Of a stretch of DNA of 38,600 bases, positions 1-38,262 are shown piece by piece. Location of the stretch: contig PLYJ01000102.1 of NCBI GenBank assembly GCA_003151745.1, positions 1-38,600 on the forward strand, read 5' to 3'. Positions within the stretch are counted from its first letter, which is position 1. The number at the start of each line of letters is the position of its first letter. Origin of the DNA: Bacteroidota bacterium (GTDB lineage: Bacteria; Bacteroidota; Bacteroidia; AKYH767-A; 2013-40CM-41-45). The notes under the pieces are model-generated. The model was not told the origin of the DNA. It was given only the letters and a program-made list of their open reading frames with translations, and searched no databases. The position numbers were made by a program, and so were the translations under genes.

Positions 1-158
1 CAAGCTATTTCAGGAAGGGACAACTACGCTATAGGTTCAGGTAACAACAATGCGATTACAGGTAACCACCATTTAGGTTCAGGTAACTACAACGTGATTA
101 CCTGTAACTACGATGTGATTACCTGTAATCACCATGTAGTTACAGGTAATTTTTACCT
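1..158. repeat. 21-bp-period degenerate tandem array (left edge cut)
   Basis: The TA step of a GGTAAC/TGTAAC/GGTAAT motif falls at 42, 63, 84, 105, 126 and 147, exactly 21 bp apart. Units look like AGGTAACTACAACGTGATTAC. Arms are partly self-complementary: GTGATTAC at unit ends faces GTAATCAC in the following unit (around 113-133), a perfect 8-bp dyad. A more degenerate unit lies before position 42, so the array probably continues left of the window. The sequence differs from the arrays at 19034-19264 and 37908-38130, but the period is identical. No cas genes and no unique spacers are seen, so this is not a CRISPR. Function unknown. Confidence 0.8.
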
Positions 159-646
159 TGTTTCATACAATTTGTATCAAAAAACGCATACACCCGATTC
201 AATGACTTAAAATTAAGTTGCTAATTTGATGAAATTGCAAAACTTGTAGGTGGTTTGAAGTTGATTAGCTTATTTGAAAAATGGTTAACTTTAGCTTTAA
301 AAATATCTTAGATTTGTGAGCATTACCAATGCAAAGCGCAGAAATCAGTAGCCGTAGGTGTGGATAATTTCTATATTTGTCTTATTGCATAGTGATTGAA
401 TTTTCGAAAGTGCGATAGCAAATGCTGTAAACAATTACTTTTGCGACTGTGCAAGATTCAGTACTAGCAAGAATTCAGTACTGGTATAAGGCCAATTGCA
501 ACGGTGATTGATTTAGCCGAAATGTTTGGAATTACTCTAATTGCAAAGGAATAATAAAATTGACAGCACTGCTTCGTATTGAAAAAACTAACCTGATGTA
601 GAGCCGGGGCTTGCCATGTTTTTCTTTGAAGGAAAAGAAAAGAAAC
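159..646. other. Gene-free stretch between repeat array and gatA promoter
   Basis: No intact gene is visible. The only protein-like signal is a short open stretch at 468-551, listed separately. The rest is AT-rich without convincing structure. Confidence 0.5.
468..551 (+). pseudogene. Possible remnant of an XRE-type HTH regulator C-terminus
   Basis: A short open stretch bounded by stops reads roughly QEFSTGIRPIATVIDLAEM followed by FGITLIAKE. This resembles the end of small XRE/HTH regulators and antitoxins, where a phrase like 'tvidLAemfGitl' closes the domain. No start codon or N-terminal part in the same frame was found upstream. This is inference from a brief resemblance and could be chance. 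Confidence 0.2.
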
Positions 647-5531: not shown

Positions 5532-5843
5532 TTATCTCCTTGCCCAATGTCCGCGAATCCATTTTGATCCGCCGCCTGCATCCACCCAATGTCCGAGCAC
5601 CCATACATTTCCTCTCCTTGGATGAACCCAATAGCCTTCTCTCCATATATAACGGTGCTCCCGTCTGCTCCAGCGCCATTCTCCGTCAACCCATATAAAC
5701 TCAGGGCCGGGGGCGCGAGGCCTTTCTACCACTACTACAGGTCGCTCAGGCCTTACCGTAACAATAAATTGTGCATTGCTTTACAAAGAGCCAAGCATCG
5801 TCAACCCTGCGATAAATGCCATTAAAATTATTGATTTTTTCAT
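5532..5843 (-). pseudogene. YXWGXW-repeat exported protein interrupted by an in-frame TAA
   Basis: From ATG at 5843 the minus strand encodes a signal-peptide-like start (MKKSIILMAFIAGLTMLGSL), then TAA at 5783-5781 as codon 21, then in the same frame SNAQFIVTVRPERPVVVVE and a W-rich body with repeated W-x-x-G-x-W units (FIWVDGEWRW, YIWREGYWVH, VWVLGHWVD, KWIRGHWARR). The body is typical of YXWGXW proteins, small exported proteins of unknown function in Bacteroidota. Frame is continuous on both sides, so one base (for example TTA to TAA) accounts for the break. Translation starting at GTG 5732 would lack a signal peptide. Either a recent nonsense mutation, a base-call error, or readthrough. 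Confidence 0.75.
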
Positions 5844-12571: not shown

Positions 12572-13303
12572 TCAGGCGTTGACAAGGCTTAGAATTGACT
12601 CGAAAATGAGCTTCCCATCTGTGTTGCCAAGTTCTGTGTCTGCAGCTCTTTCAGGGTGAGGCATCATGCCAAAAACATTCCGTTTGTCGTTGGAAATGCC
12701 GGCTATGTTTTCCATCGCTCCGTTAGGGTTTGATTCAGGAGTTATGTTGCCGTTTTCATCGCAATAACGGAAAAGCACCTGGTCATTTTTATTAAGCAGC
12801 TTAAGCGTTGCTTCATCAGCATAAAACTTTCCTTCTCCGTGAGCAATCGGTGTTTTCAACGCCTTGTCCAGCGGTATGGCTGAAGTGATTTGGCTGTCAT
12901 TCGTTTGCGCTTTAATGAAAACATTTTTACAGATAAACTGGTGCGCATCATTGCTTAACAAAGCACCCGGAAGCAAATGCGACTCGCATAATACCTGGAA
13001 ACCATTGCAAACACCTAAAACGAAACCGCCTTTATCAGCAAATTCCATTACTTCATTCATGATGGGGCTGAAACGCGCAATGGCTCCGCTACGCAGGTAA
13101 TCGCCATAAGAAAAGCCGCCGGGAAGAATGATGAAATTGCAGTTCTGCAAGTCGTGGTCTTTATGCCAAAGCTTTATCACTTCCTGGTGATCGCCCGGTC
13201 GAATGCGCCCGTTGGCAGATTTCATCTTTAAGTTTTCAAGGACATAGATCATGTCCATGTCACAGTTACTGCCCTGAAAAACAACTACACCGAATTTCAT
13301 CAT
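12572..13303 (-). CDS. purQ: Phosphoribosylformylglycinamidine synthase subunit PurQ
   Basis: Glutamine amidotransferase subunit of FGAM synthase (purine biosynthesis step 4), supplying ammonia to PurL. 243 aa class I amidotransferase: FNCD-type start (VVFQGSNCD), ILPGGFSYGDYLRSG, nucleophile C99 in LGVCNGFQ, and the His/Glu pair in MMPHPERA. The segment between VLENL and EVIKLWHKDHDL (about residues 26-41, KMKSANGRIRPGDHQ) is longer than I expect for the family; see findings. purL and purS are not in the window, so this is the split small-subunit type. A -7 box (TAACTTTG on the minus strand) lies 18-25 nt upstream of the start. Confidence 0.94.
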   Translation of the reverse strand: MMKFGVVVFQGSNCDMDMIYVLENLKMKSANGRIRPGDHQEVIKLWHKDHDLQNCNFIILPGGFSYGDYLRSGAIARFSPIMNEVMEFADKGGFVLGVCNGFQVLCESHLLPGALLSNDAHQFICKNVFIKAQTNDSQITSAIPLDKALKTPIAHGEGKFYADEATLKLLNKNDQVLFRYCDENGNITPESNPNGAMENIAGISNDKRNVFGMMPHPERAADTELGNTDGKLIFESILSLVNA

Positions 13304-14173: not shown

Positions 14174-15202
14174 TTACAAATTCACATCCGTAAAAGCTAC
14201 CTGGAGAAGAGTCTGACCAACTGCTTTGAGGGTGTTTTTATCAATGATGCTCATGTTGTCATCGTGCGTATGCCAATAGTCAGGGAAAACCCTGCTGCGC
14301 GAGTTGGCATCATATTGAATAATATCAATGGTAGGAATATGCGTCATGTTGTTGATGTAATAGTGATCGTCTATCAGCTCGCCTCCGGGGAGGTAAACAA
14401 AATAATCACTGTAACCGATGTGCGCCGCAGCGTCCCACACCCTCTTCACAACATCATTGGCATAGCTAAGTGAGTTCCTTTCCTGGTAAAACTTTGCGCC
14501 TTTAGCACCAACCATGTCGAGAAGAATGCCATACGATGCAAAATAATTGGGCACATGCGGATGCTCTGCCCAGTATTGCGTGCCGAGGCAATAGCTGTCT
14601 TTCATGATGGGAAGCTTGCTGTCCTCCTGCTGGCCCCAATCTTCAACATCTAAGAAAATAATATCTATGCCAATGCCAAGCTTCGTGTTTTGAAGATCTC
14701 GTGCCATTTCAAGAAGAATGGCAACACCGCTGGCCCCATCGCTGGCTGCATCAATAGGCTCATTCTTTCGCGCAGTGTCCTGATCTGCAAACGGACGTGA
14801 ATCCCAATGAGAACAAAGAAGAATGCGTTGCTTGGTGTCGGGATTGTACTGTGCAATAATATTTTTCGCAACCAGTCTTTTATTGTCAAAGGTTTTTACC
14901 TCACCATGTTGCATGATGACAGGAAGACCATACGATTTCAGCTTTGCAACAAGATAGTCCGCACACTTCGCATGAGCAGGAGTGCCCGGCACACGCGGCC
15001 CAAACGCTACCTGTGCTGCTGTGAATTCATAAGCTGAATCTGCATTAAAGTTAGGAACAGGAAGGGTAAGGGTTTCCGGCTTTGTGTTTACTGTTTCGGG
15101 TTGCTTTGGTTTATTGCATTCACAAGAAGAGAAAAAAATTAAGAATGCAGAATGCAGAATGCAGAATGCAACATTGGTGCTGAGAAATGGTTTGCTTTTC
15201 AT
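14174..15202 (-). CDS. M28 family lipoprotein, glutaminyl-peptide cyclotransferase-like
   Basis: 342 aa. N-terminus is a lipoprotein signal ending at C27 (LIFFSSC). The mature part is an M28-fold enzyme: ligands H132 (CSHWDSRP), D155 (ASDGASG), E187 (FLDVEDWG) and a late histidine in YWHTHDD. The short single-domain layout and the FGPRVPGTPAHAKCADYL N-terminal region fit bacterial glutaminyl cyclases, which convert N-terminal Gln of exported proteins to pyroglutamate. Pyroglutamate formation is common on Bacteroidota exported proteins because signal peptidase often cuts before Gln. An aminopeptidase role is the alternative. The signal peptide is partly encoded by a repeat dyad (15138-15233), so its residues 11-22 are atypical. 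It follows cysS by 24 nt. Confidence 0.82.
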   Translation of the reverse strand: MKSKPFLSTNVAFCILHSAFLIFFSSCECNKPKQPETVNTKPETLTLPVPNFNADSAYEFTAAQVAFGPRVPGTPAHAKCADYLVAKLKSYGLPVIMQHGEVKTFDNKRLVAKNIIAQYNPDTKQRILLCSHWDSRPFADQDTARKNEPIDAASDGASGVAILLEMARDLQNTKLGIGIDIIFLDVEDWGQQEDSKLPIMKDSYCLGTQYWAEHPHVPNYFASYGILLDMVGAKGAKFYQERNSLSYANDVVKRVWDAAAHIGYSDYFVYLPGGELIDDHYYINNMTHIPTIDIIQYDANSRSRVFPDYWHTHDDNMSIIDKNTLKAVGQTLLQVAFTDVNL

Positions 15203-15233: not shown

Positions 15234-16780
15234 TTCGACCACAACGTTCCGTCCTTACTATCCTTAATTTCGAAGCCAACTTTTAAAAGCTCATCGCGAA
15301 TCTTATCAGAGGTTGCGAAGTCCTTTTTACTCTTAGCTTCAGTACGCATGTTGAGAATAACCTGCATCAATCCTTCCAGATCATTTGATCCGGAATCTTC
15401 TTCTTTCTTTAGTCCGAGAATTTCAAATGCAAATACATTGAAAATATTCTTTATTGTTTCGAGATCAGCACCTGTGATTGTTTCCGTGCTCGCATAAACC
15501 GAATTCACAATGCGAACCGCTTCGAAAAGATGAGAGATGAGAATGGCAGTATTCATATCATCATTCAGCGCATCGTAGCATTTCTGCTTCAATGCCTGCA
15601 CATCCGATTGAAGTGGGGAGTGGGGAGTCGGGAGGGGGGAGGGTGGAACATCGGAGTTTTTTTTCTCCCTACTTCCTACTCCAAGCTCCCTACTAATCAA
15701 TTTATCTACCAGCTCAACAGCATTCAATAATTTCTGCAATCCTTTTTCTGCCGCTTTCAATCCTTCATTGCTGAAATCGAGCGTGCTGCGGTAATGCGCC
15801 TGCAAAATGAAAAACCTTATTGTCATGGGCGAATAAGCCTGCTCCAGCAATTTATGCTTGCCCGTAAACAATTCTTCCAACGTAATGAAGTTACCCAATG
15901 ACTTGCCCATCTTCTGCCCGTTGATGGTGATCATGTTATTATGCATCCAGTATTTCACAGGGTCTTTATGATTGGCTGCATTGCTTTGCGCGATTTCACA
16001 TTCATGATGAGGGAAAAGTAAATCCATTCCGCCGCCGTGAATGTCAAATGTCTCGCCAAGGTACTTAGCACTCATCGCCGAACATTCGATGTGCCATCCC
16101 GGGAAACCAATGCCCCACGGACTTTCCCACTTCATGATATGTTCTTCTGATACTTTCTTCCAAAGTGCGAAATCGGCACGGTTGTGCTTCTCACTTTGTC
16201 CTTCCAGCTCCCGTCTTTCTTCTCCCGCACCTGATATTAAATCTTCCAGCACGTGGCCTGATAGCTTTCCATAATTGTTTGTCTTATTGTATTTCACGAC
16301 ATCAAAATAGACTGAGCCATTCGATTCATAAGCAAAACCATTCTTCATGATGTCCTCAATCATCTTGATCTGTTCAATTATATGGCCTGATGCGCGCGGC
16401 TCTATGCTTGGGTTTTTAATGTTGAGTGCAGTCAGCTTTTCATGAAAGCTGTCAGTATAATATTGCGCTACTTCCATTGGTTCCAATTGTTCAAGGCGTG
16501 CTTTCTTTGAAATCTTGTCTTCGCCTTCGCCGACAACTTCATCTTCCAAATGGCCCACATCAGTAATGTTTTTTACAAAGCGCACTTTATAACCGAGATG
16601 CTGCAGGTAGCGGTACAACACATCAAACGTAATATACGGCCGTGCATGTCCAAGATGAGGATACCCATACACCGTAGGCCCGCACACGTATATACCCACA
16701 AAGCCCGGAATAATCGGCACAAACTTTTCCTTTTGTCGGGAAAGGGAATTGTGTATATATAGTGGTTGTTCGGAAATCAC
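15227..16780 (-). CDS. cysS: Cysteinyl-tRNA synthetase (with repeat-derived insertion)
   Basis: Class Ia synthetase that charges tRNA(Cys). 517 aa. Zinc ligand C33 (YVCGPTVYG), HIGH motif HLGH at 42-45, [23 protein letters not shown] motif as KMGKS near 290, and the DALR-like C-terminal helical domain ending [16 protein letters not shown]. The protein is about 30-35 residues longer than a typical CysRS because residues about 360-392 ([11 protein letters not shown] and [12 protein letters not shown]) are encoded by a 7-nt-word dyad (15612-15694) that keeps the frame open. The insertion is in the helical region after the KMSKS domain, away from the active site, and its divisibility by three leaves the enzyme plausibly functional. 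It is 79 nt downstream of the threonine dehydrogenase gene. Confidence 0.96.
15612..15694. repeat. Dyad of 7-nt words (GGGAGTC/CTCCCTA) inside cysS
   Basis: Left arm GAGTGGG, GAGTCGG, GAGGGGG at 7-nt period; right arm CTCCCTA, CTTCCTA, CTCCAAG, CTCCCTA at 7-nt period; apex around CATCGGAG and a T-run. It is wholly inside cysS and translated as a Pro/Ser-rich segment. Confidence 0.85.
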
Positions 16781-18898: not shown

Positions 18899-19318
18899 TT
18901 TCCTAATTCCCTAGACAAGCCCAATTCATAACGCTGTTTACTTAATTCCCTAAAAACATTAATCTCTCCTCAACTCATCCAACCCACTTTTAGCGTTTTT
19001 AAAGCAAAATCACCAAAACAAGGCAAATAGTGATACCAACAAAACAAATTTTCGTACGAATATTTCCATTATTGATACCAACAAAACATTTATTGATACG
19101 ACTATTTCCATTGTTCGTATGAATAAAAGTTTTATTCGTACCACTTTTTCTTTTGTTGGTATGACTTTTAATAAAAGTCGTATGAAAATTGTTGTTTTTC
19201 GTATGAACAAAAGTTTTGTTCGTATGACTTACACTTTTGTTCGTATGGAAATTTTCATTAATCATAACAATAATTATTTTGTTCTAATGACATTTTTCAT
19301 TTTTCTACAGACTTTTTT
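18899..19318 (-). repeat. ~420-bp inverted repeat element, copy A, with 21-bp-period array
   Basis: About 90% identical to 37844-38262 in the opposite orientation. Left part has two copies of an AATTCCCTA motif (18904-18912, 18945-18953) and the conserved AAAGCAAAATCACC. The core (19034-19264) has TA steps at 19034, 19055, 19076, 19097, 19118, 19139, 19160, 19181, 19202, 19223 and 19244, exactly 21 bp apart. Several units are GTAT plus a 17-bp palindrome: GAATAAAAGTTTTATTC, GACTTTTAATAAAAGTC, GAACAAAAGTTTTGTTC. Because 21 is divisible by three, both strands stay open (an 88-aa frame at 19265-18999 reading NKTFxHT heptapeptides, another on plus); I do not regard these as genes. Confidence 0.9.
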
Positions 19319-19448
19319 AAGGCTTGTTAAGAAGAAATCTGCGTTCGCATGCAATTTTTAAAGTGATCTGTTCAACAAACAGGTAAATGGAATTGCCTGG
19401 TTTGAAAAATGATGTTGGAATTATAGCATGCAGATGACGCCGATGCGG

Positions 19449-37657: not shown

Positions 37658-37843
37658 TCCCGGAGCAATTGTTCAAACGGATTAATAGTCATTCCCTGGA
37701 TTTCGATAATTGATACTTTGTTTTTTAATAATCAACTGCTATTTTTAAGGGTGTATTTAATAACCAAATAACAGATTCAATCCTTTATCTGAACCTTAAA
37801 TAAATGTCCGGACACAAAACTTCCCGTATAAGAAACGAGTGCA
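37658..37843. other. Intergenic stretch before repeat copy B
   Basis: No gene, terminator or promoter recognised. Confidence 0.4.
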
Positions 37844-38262
37844 TAAAAAGTCTGTCGAAAAATGAAAATAGTCATTAGAACAAAATAATTATTCTTATGA
37901 TTAATGAAAATTCTCACACGAACAAAACTGTTAGTCATAACAACAAAACTTTTGTTCATACGAAAAACAACAATTTTCATACGACTTTTATTAAAAGTCA
38001 TACGAACAAAAGAAAAAGTGGTACGAATAAAACTTTTAATCATACGAAAAATGGAAATAGTCGTATCAATAAATGTTTTGTTGGTATCAATAATGGAAAT
38101 ATTCATACTAAAATTTGTTTTGTTGGTACGACTTTTTGCCTTGTTTTAGTGATTTTGCTTTAAAAACGAAAAAATGGGTTGGAGGAGATGGTGAGAGGTT
38201 ACTGTTTTTAGGGAATTGGGGAAATTGGGTTATGAACTGGGTTTGTTTAGGGAATTGGGAAA
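37844..38262 (+). repeat. ~420-bp inverted repeat element, copy B, with 21-bp-period array
   Basis: Reverse-complement counterpart of 18899-19318, about 90% identical end to end. The array core is about 37908-38130, followed by the conserved GATTTTGCTTTAAAAACG block and two TTTAGGGAATTGGG motifs (38207-38220, 38248-38261) 41 bp apart. The 88-codon frame at 37897-38163 matches that in copy A with 8 amino-acid differences; most nucleotide changes inside it alter the amino acid, which speaks against selection for a protein. Outside 37844-38262 the two loci are unrelated. Confidence 0.9.

Follow-up and report, generated by a model that had tools for sequence, protein, structure and literature searches.

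The window, the whole stretch of 38,600 nucleotides analysed here, belongs to a Bacteroidota draft genome of 4.6 Mb in 279 contigs (G000), and contains two copies of a 420-bp element, C1 and C2, which are inverted relative to each other and about 90% identical, as an earlier note on this DNA had described (Table 1). That note knew the element as a pair; the genome holds four copies, C3 and C4 lying on other contigs. Autocorrelation of C1 and C2 each gives peaks at 21, 42, and 63 only, and all gaps between motif sites in C1 are 21 bp (21 × 12), confirming the exact spacing that had been proposed; by the same count the core has about 13 units, not about eleven. Twenty-one bp are two turns of B-DNA. 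As had been noted, there is no transposase ORF within the element; in addition, no inverted pair links both ends of C1 or of C2, and the sole Rfam match in the window is a tRNA, with none for the element. The sequence of C1-C4 is absent from the 60 relatives searched, and the phage and plasmid records contain no match to it.

Table 1. Coordinates of the element copies, their parts, and associated repeats (window positions unless a contig is named).
Feature	Position	Strand	Remarks
Copy C1 (flank and phased core)	18899..19318	+	91% identity to C2, 82% to C3, 68% to C4
Copy C2, inverted relative to C1	37844/37845..38262	-	91% identity to C1 over 419 bp
Copy C3	G000:C28:7060-7310 (contig 28)		82% identity to C1
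Copy C4	G000:C230:19360-19673 (contig 230)		68% identity to C1
Phased core of C1	19028..19318	+	about 13 TTSRTAYSAA sites, 21 bp apart; A/T-rich spacers of 11-12 bp
Phased core of C2	37845..38135	-	
5′ flank of C1	18899..18960	+	carries CCTAATTCCC / CCTAATTCCCTA / CCCAATTC motifs; common to C1 and C2 only (alignment)
3′ flank of C1	19319..19383	+	resembles the 3′ flank of C4; beyond the bounds of the earlier note
Second window array	1..215	.	TGTAACC/GGTTACA motif family, with related arrays on contigs C10 and C229; TRF period 21 at 38-149
Hairpin repeat GCATCCTGACAGGCAATCGCCCCTTCGCGATTTCCTGTCAGGATGC	L149 3501-3552 and 3842-3794; L166 15428; L154 10426; L160 391-450		

The boundaries of the element depend on the copy used for comparison. 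The ends of C1 are sharp against C2, as stated before, but against C4 the similarity continues to position 19383 (a C4 query, 2-380, matches the window's contig at C20:19005-19383 with 69%). The flanks with paired motifs, taken to be conserved, are so in part: the 5′ flank is shared by C1 and C2 and limited to those two copies. Dispersed copies that share flanks occur within this one genome for C1-C4 and for the TGTAACC family, and the copies of the second dispersed array family of G000 are 83-88% alike, flanks included.

Other short repeats are found in the same sequences. The window has heptamer tandem repeats of about four copies each at 15142-15170, 15612-15641, 23116-23146, and 23645-23676 (AGAATGC, AGTGGGG, AATTATG, AGTTTAA); the AGAATGC heptamer is inside a peptidase-like ORF near its start, and the AGTGGGG heptamer inside cysS. 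Among short periods, 7 is the most frequent in G000 (18 in 376 kb), and in relatives as well. On the 3′ side of C4 (L008 3289-3345, G000:C230), there is a short dispersed repeat around ACATCCCCCTAATCCCC, which is found at about 25 places in the genome, several of them inverted pairs 90-270 bp apart; it is likely a MITE or REP-like family.

Arrays of period 21 across genomes

A profile made from the four copies (R1) gave weak matches in other genomes of the order. The matches in G014, a relative of the same order as G000, and in its congener G017 are unrelated in sequence but have the exact 21-bp period, so we scanned for periods of every length between 10 and 60 bp, using sampled contigs rather than whole genomes. 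In 322 kb of unselected G014 contigs, there are 70 arrays of period 21 or 42 (about one every 4.7 kb), compared with seven of all other periods. The 376 kb of G000 contain about 25-30 arrays of period 21/42 and about ten others, a density that is biased upwards, the contigs having been partly picked for earlier matches. Extrapolation gives totals of about 800 arrays in G014 and perhaps 300 in G000. In G014, TRF reports about 100 repeats, of which 83 have a period of 21 (56), 42 (20), 63 (three), or 84 (four). The counts for 21, 42, and 63 are 19, 11, and four in G000 (34 in total), and 16, nine, and two in G017 and a further congener, G021; relatives without arrays show no excess of 21/42/63/84. 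At a lag of 21 the identity reaches 0.655, compared with about 0.25 elsewhere, and a sub-period at 7, 10, or 11 (10.5) is absent.

Further carriers include contigs L010, L013, L023, L030, L059, and L068, and the genomes G044 and G083 (another class); in other Bacteroidota the arrays are sparse. The R1 search of the phylum gave few matches, one of them with real 21-bp arrays (G083), and most of the weak matches elsewhere are AT-rich chance matches without a period. Among 11 sampled genomes of the window's own family, arrays were found only in G000 (none in about 10-40 kb of each of the ten others); given this patchy distribution, the function is not essential in that family.

The 420-bp element is one member of a genome-wide intergenic class, whose arrays repeat a short motif of about 6-10 bp, frequently dyad-symmetric, at intervals of 21 bp. 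The suggestion of one mobile element is too narrow for a four-copy family inside a far larger class. The earlier note had also considered that the two copies might stand alone and that relatives might not conserve the period; instead, we found four copies, and arrays of period 21 throughout G000, G014, and the congeners of G014, and sparsely in other Bacteroidota. The weight it placed on the exact two-turn period was justified, as the period is held across hundreds of arrays unrelated in sequence. In the open-access literature, searched with limited terms, this class is not described.

The data are mostly draft metagenome assemblies, with home-made gene calls. We consider it extremely improbable that small k-mer cycles during assembly produced the arrays: 21 is a common assembly k, and many near-identical arrays are at contig ends, but diverged arrays with unique spacers, paralogous copies, and period-42 arrays cannot arise in this way, and separate assemblies agree in having arrays at a given gene gap. 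An artefact is refuted for the diverged arrays; the near-identical ones might be mis-assembled. Short-read assembly may also limit the apparent length of arrays to about 17 units.

Motif, spacers, and symmetry within arrays

Young arrays have near-identical units, and older arrays have a short motif and variable spacers, still exactly 21 bp apart (motifs of older G000 arrays include GGTATCCAA, TCATATATGA, GTCACATGTGAC, AATCACGTGATT, and TCCTATGTAGGA). The motif is 6-10 bp long and the spacers 11-15 bp; many arrays have a single motif, and some alternate at 42 bp. Among gaps of 15-27 bp between neighbouring sites in 132 arrays, 1155 of 1197 are exactly 21 bp, and in arrays with spacer identity below 0.45 there are 404 gaps of exactly 21 bp versus 11 of 20 or 22; since the arrays were found by their 21-bp period these ratios are biased upwards, and TRF, which allows indels, agrees with them. 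That spacer similarity is lost while the phase is retained is a direct observation despite this selection. For example, L297 has 14 sites of RTATTAATTG with a motif identity of 0.91 and a spacer identity of 0.35 (randomised), and 13 of its 13 gaps are 21 bp. The array at L291 16873-17708 (G083) has about 40 units in a single 21-bp register, in which old segments give way to young and then to old ones, with two or more motifs among them. In L144 25-360 (G014:C20) and L160 8705-8790, the orientation of the units flips at a palindromic unit with the 21-bp register preserved, which looks like the in-phase inversion of a segment.

Almost every array has its own sequence, and motifs are rarely common to arrays beyond a few homologous families. 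A pattern search with the C1 motif found other phased sites at C37, C88, and C147, with a total outside the C1-C4 family no higher than for the reversed-pattern control. Within the family, phase alignment gives TTSRTAYSAA for C1-C3 and mostly TTSWGCAGA for C4: nearly all units of C4 have GC in place of TA as the central step, and the spacers remain alike. The TA step that was said to face one side of the helix in every unit is thus found in C1-C3, and replaced by GC in most units of C4. At phases 4-5, C1 and C4 are 0% identical to each other, yet 92-100% uniform inside each copy; at phases 11-19 they are 77-100% identical between copies, though the units differ within a copy. The motif has changed concertedly, without homogenisation of the spacers. 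This pattern is the reverse of what is expected from unequal crossing-over alone, and standard tandem-repeat evolution offers no obvious way for a motif to change array-wide while the spacers are conserved.

Dyad symmetry is enriched without being universal: consensus units have 6.16 complementary pairs, compared with 5.32 in shuffles (s.d. 0.87, single shuffles), and 40% of them have a stem of 5 bp or more, compared with 11% in shuffles. Some units are near-perfect palindromes, as had been claimed for individual units, but the symmetric feature is the degenerate consensus TTSRTAYSAA. Compensatory changes that preserve base-paired palindromes, also proposed earlier, are unsupported: in 60 arrays there are 81 compensated double changes versus 73±6 in shuffles, and the complementary pairs of C1-C4 units show no unit-by-unit covariation. 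Since the pairs do not covary unit by unit, the symmetry is held as a degenerate consensus, as in protein-binding sites, and not as base pairs.

These results bear on whether the arrays act as RNA, either as transcribed hairpins or as guide-RNA arrays, among them a TIGR-like system in which short repeats alternate with spacers. The dimensions of motif and spacer, and the frequent alternation at 42, resemble TIGR arrays (PMC12045711), and either strand of C1 gives a better fold than shuffles do, which is expected of any dyad-rich repeat; the pairs do not covary, however, the hundreds of loci lie in all gene orientations (as seen in G014), and the spacers form a continuum from identical to randomised. 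A search of 42 genomes with the Nop family (PF01798), a Pfam model that may miss remote Tas proteins, gave no match over the cut-off and none at all in G000 or G014, and a TIGR-Tas system was set aside on this basis. A structured RNA, one of the possibilities first listed, is not favoured, and we regard the whole RNA reading as improbable.

A coding role is still harder to sustain. Twenty-one bp equal seven codons, and the arrays could encode seven-residue peptide repeats; many arrays have an open frame, with nine stops in the best frame versus 21.7±3.0 in column shuffles. This shortage of stops extends to all six frames at once, so the effect is not frame-specific. Variation is unbiased over codon positions (1.293 vs 1.272), C1 differs from C3/C4 about equally at the three codon positions, none of the frames stays open in every copy, and the period is 21 only, not 15, 18, or 24. 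Coding was rejected for the C1-C4 family and is unsupported in other arrays, and we consider it very unlikely overall. Many arrays resemble genes because units without stops give open frames, and open frames called over 21-bp arrays are spurious. The 109-codon ORF across C2 (window 37777-38106, reverse strand), which has no Pfam match and whose frame is closed in C3/C4, is such a repeat artefact.

Gene gaps and array turnover

In G014, 37 of 43 gene gaps of at least 400 bp contain an array, compared with one of 154 gaps below 200 bp. The arrays are more evenly spaced than random gene gaps (CV 0.42 vs 0.76±0.08), and are found between convergent, divergent, and tandem genes, all orientations occurring. 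With G014 as the reference, several of its gene gaps hold an array of unrelated sequence in G017 or G021, and others do not. Gaps where the position is kept and the sequence replaced include L159 near 1 and 5445, and L160 near 123, 5782, and 17997 (at 5782 the G021 array is related, and inverted in orientation); the gaps at 13086 and at L159 10057 probably also hold unrelated arrays in congeners. Two clean empty sites were found between congeners, one of 335 bp with the array in G014 versus 71 bp in G017, and the other of 454 bp with the array in G021 versus 50 bp in G014; their flanks have diverged, and neither site has a clear target-site duplication. The hairpin repeat GCATCCTGACAGGCAATCGCCCCTTCGCGATTTCCTGTCAGGATGC flanks several G014 arrays, in one case at both ends and inverted.

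Such observations could indicate non-autonomous mobile elements that carry the 21-bp repeats in the manner of BrickBuilt, where a minisatellite sits within a MITE. The two dispersed families of G000, the precise presence or absence in congeners, and the hairpin repeat beside several G014 arrays would all fit; but C1 and C2 lack terminal inverted repeats, few G014 arrays are alike (12 linked pairs among 61), different species have different array sequences at one site, and phage or plasmid records hold no match. We therefore think mobility of this kind an improbable account of the class.

Neutral minisatellites may be involved instead: lineage-specific replication or recombination with a 21-bp ruler would produce functionless arrays that expand, drift, and vanish in unconstrained gaps. 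The patchy distribution, the many near-identical young arrays, the higher-order 42/63/84 repeats, the clean presence or absence between congeners, and the filling of long gaps by arrays are all as this would have it. It is less able to account for exact spacing and a motif that outlive randomised spacers, for the replacement of the C4 motif throughout with spacers not homogenised, for the even spacing of G014 arrays relative to random gene gaps, and for the scarcity of two-copy stages relative to arrays with three or more copies. We rate it as possible, though on the unlikely side.

Interpretation and comparison with known systems

The survival of 21-bp spacing and motif through randomisation of the spacers, the protein-like degenerate symmetry, and the independence of orientation favour a platform of duplex DNA bound on one face. 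We tentatively propose, with a probability of about 0.42, that the arrays are multi-site platforms that present a motif repeatedly on one face of the helix for putative protein binding, and that insulate or organise gene neighbourhoods. Phased DNA-binding arrays have their sites a whole number of helical turns apart on one face, and the exact 21-bp gaps here give this arrangement. The duplex would be the selected object, and its ligand would most likely be a dimeric DNA-binding or nucleoid protein; a dimeric or nucleoid-type site had been suggested from the outset, and the retention of the period across hundreds of unrelated arrays is consistent with one. Units would be re-amplified in phase by recombination, in multiples of 21 bp, and would then diverge, with only the motif and its phase retained.

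The chief difficulty is that the motifs differ. With motifs so seldom common to several arrays, no one sequence-specific protein can bind all of them; either there are many proteins, or one reader of phase or dyad shape, or the arrays are functionless products of a 21-bp ruler. A more speculative form of the platform proposal, which we consider doubtful, is that the arrays are period-locked and sequence-free across the chromosome, each with its own motif, and are read by their two-turn phase and internal self-similarity as evenly spaced organising or insulating sites, the motif being swappable array-wide. The reader might be a nucleoid protein that senses dyads in phase, or like units might pair with one another. 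If true, arrays would be individually addressed, and a motif could be swapped across an array with phase and position kept. Genome repeats are usually grouped by sequence; here, it is the helical period that is conserved, at hundreds of loci in several lineages. This would point either to a DNA architecture under selection in bacterial chromosomes or to a molecular ruler that generates duplications of 21 bp. The class could be new in kind, because its conserved property is the period and not the sequence; under a strict definition it might instead count as a further form of bacterial minisatellite.

Several known systems share some of these features. Plasmid iterons have one Rep-specific sequence at one origin. 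Like iterons and phased operators, the arrays have a motif about every two helical turns on one helix face, but there are hundreds of them, with differing motifs, across the chromosome. CRISPR arrays were rejected as a match: they have identical repeats of about 25-36 nt and unique spacers of similar length, whereas the motif here is 6-10 bp and the spacers 11-15 bp. TIGR arrays are similar in their short repeats (8-12) and short spacers, sometimes with two alternating repeats, in a repeat sequence that varies between loci, and in their dyad features (PMC12045711). They differ in having few loci, beside a tas gene, and fixed 9-nt spacers, and they are processed into 36-nt RNAs (PMC12045711). 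Here there are hundreds of loci without a tas gene (no Nop match over the cut-off) and the spacers differ in length; some arrays alternate at 42 bp, and many have one motif. TAACTGA and other heptamer repeats of Cyanobacteria, Beggiatoaceae, and Bacteroidetes are also short, direct, intergenic, and patchily distributed, but consist of one 7-bp sequence without spacers (PMC4679880), and the arrays here have no 7-bp sub-period.

The nearest known element is BrickBuilt of Porphyromonas gingivalis, also a member of the Bacteroidota, a 23-nt minisatellite inside a MITE; it and PgRS/MITE464 have 10-20 copies each, and their repeats of 23 or 41 nt span about two or four turns of the helix (PMC4596501). 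Both share with our arrays the phylum, the intergenic location, and the head-to-tail, dyad-rich repeats (PMC4596501). Each of those families, however, has one repeat sequence, where almost every array here has a different one, and has a leader, a tail, and IS5-like terminal repeats, where we found no terminal inverted repeats in C1 or C2; and their unit is 23 or 41 nt (PMC4596501), where almost all arrays described here keep to 21 bp (the 1155 of 1197 gaps above).
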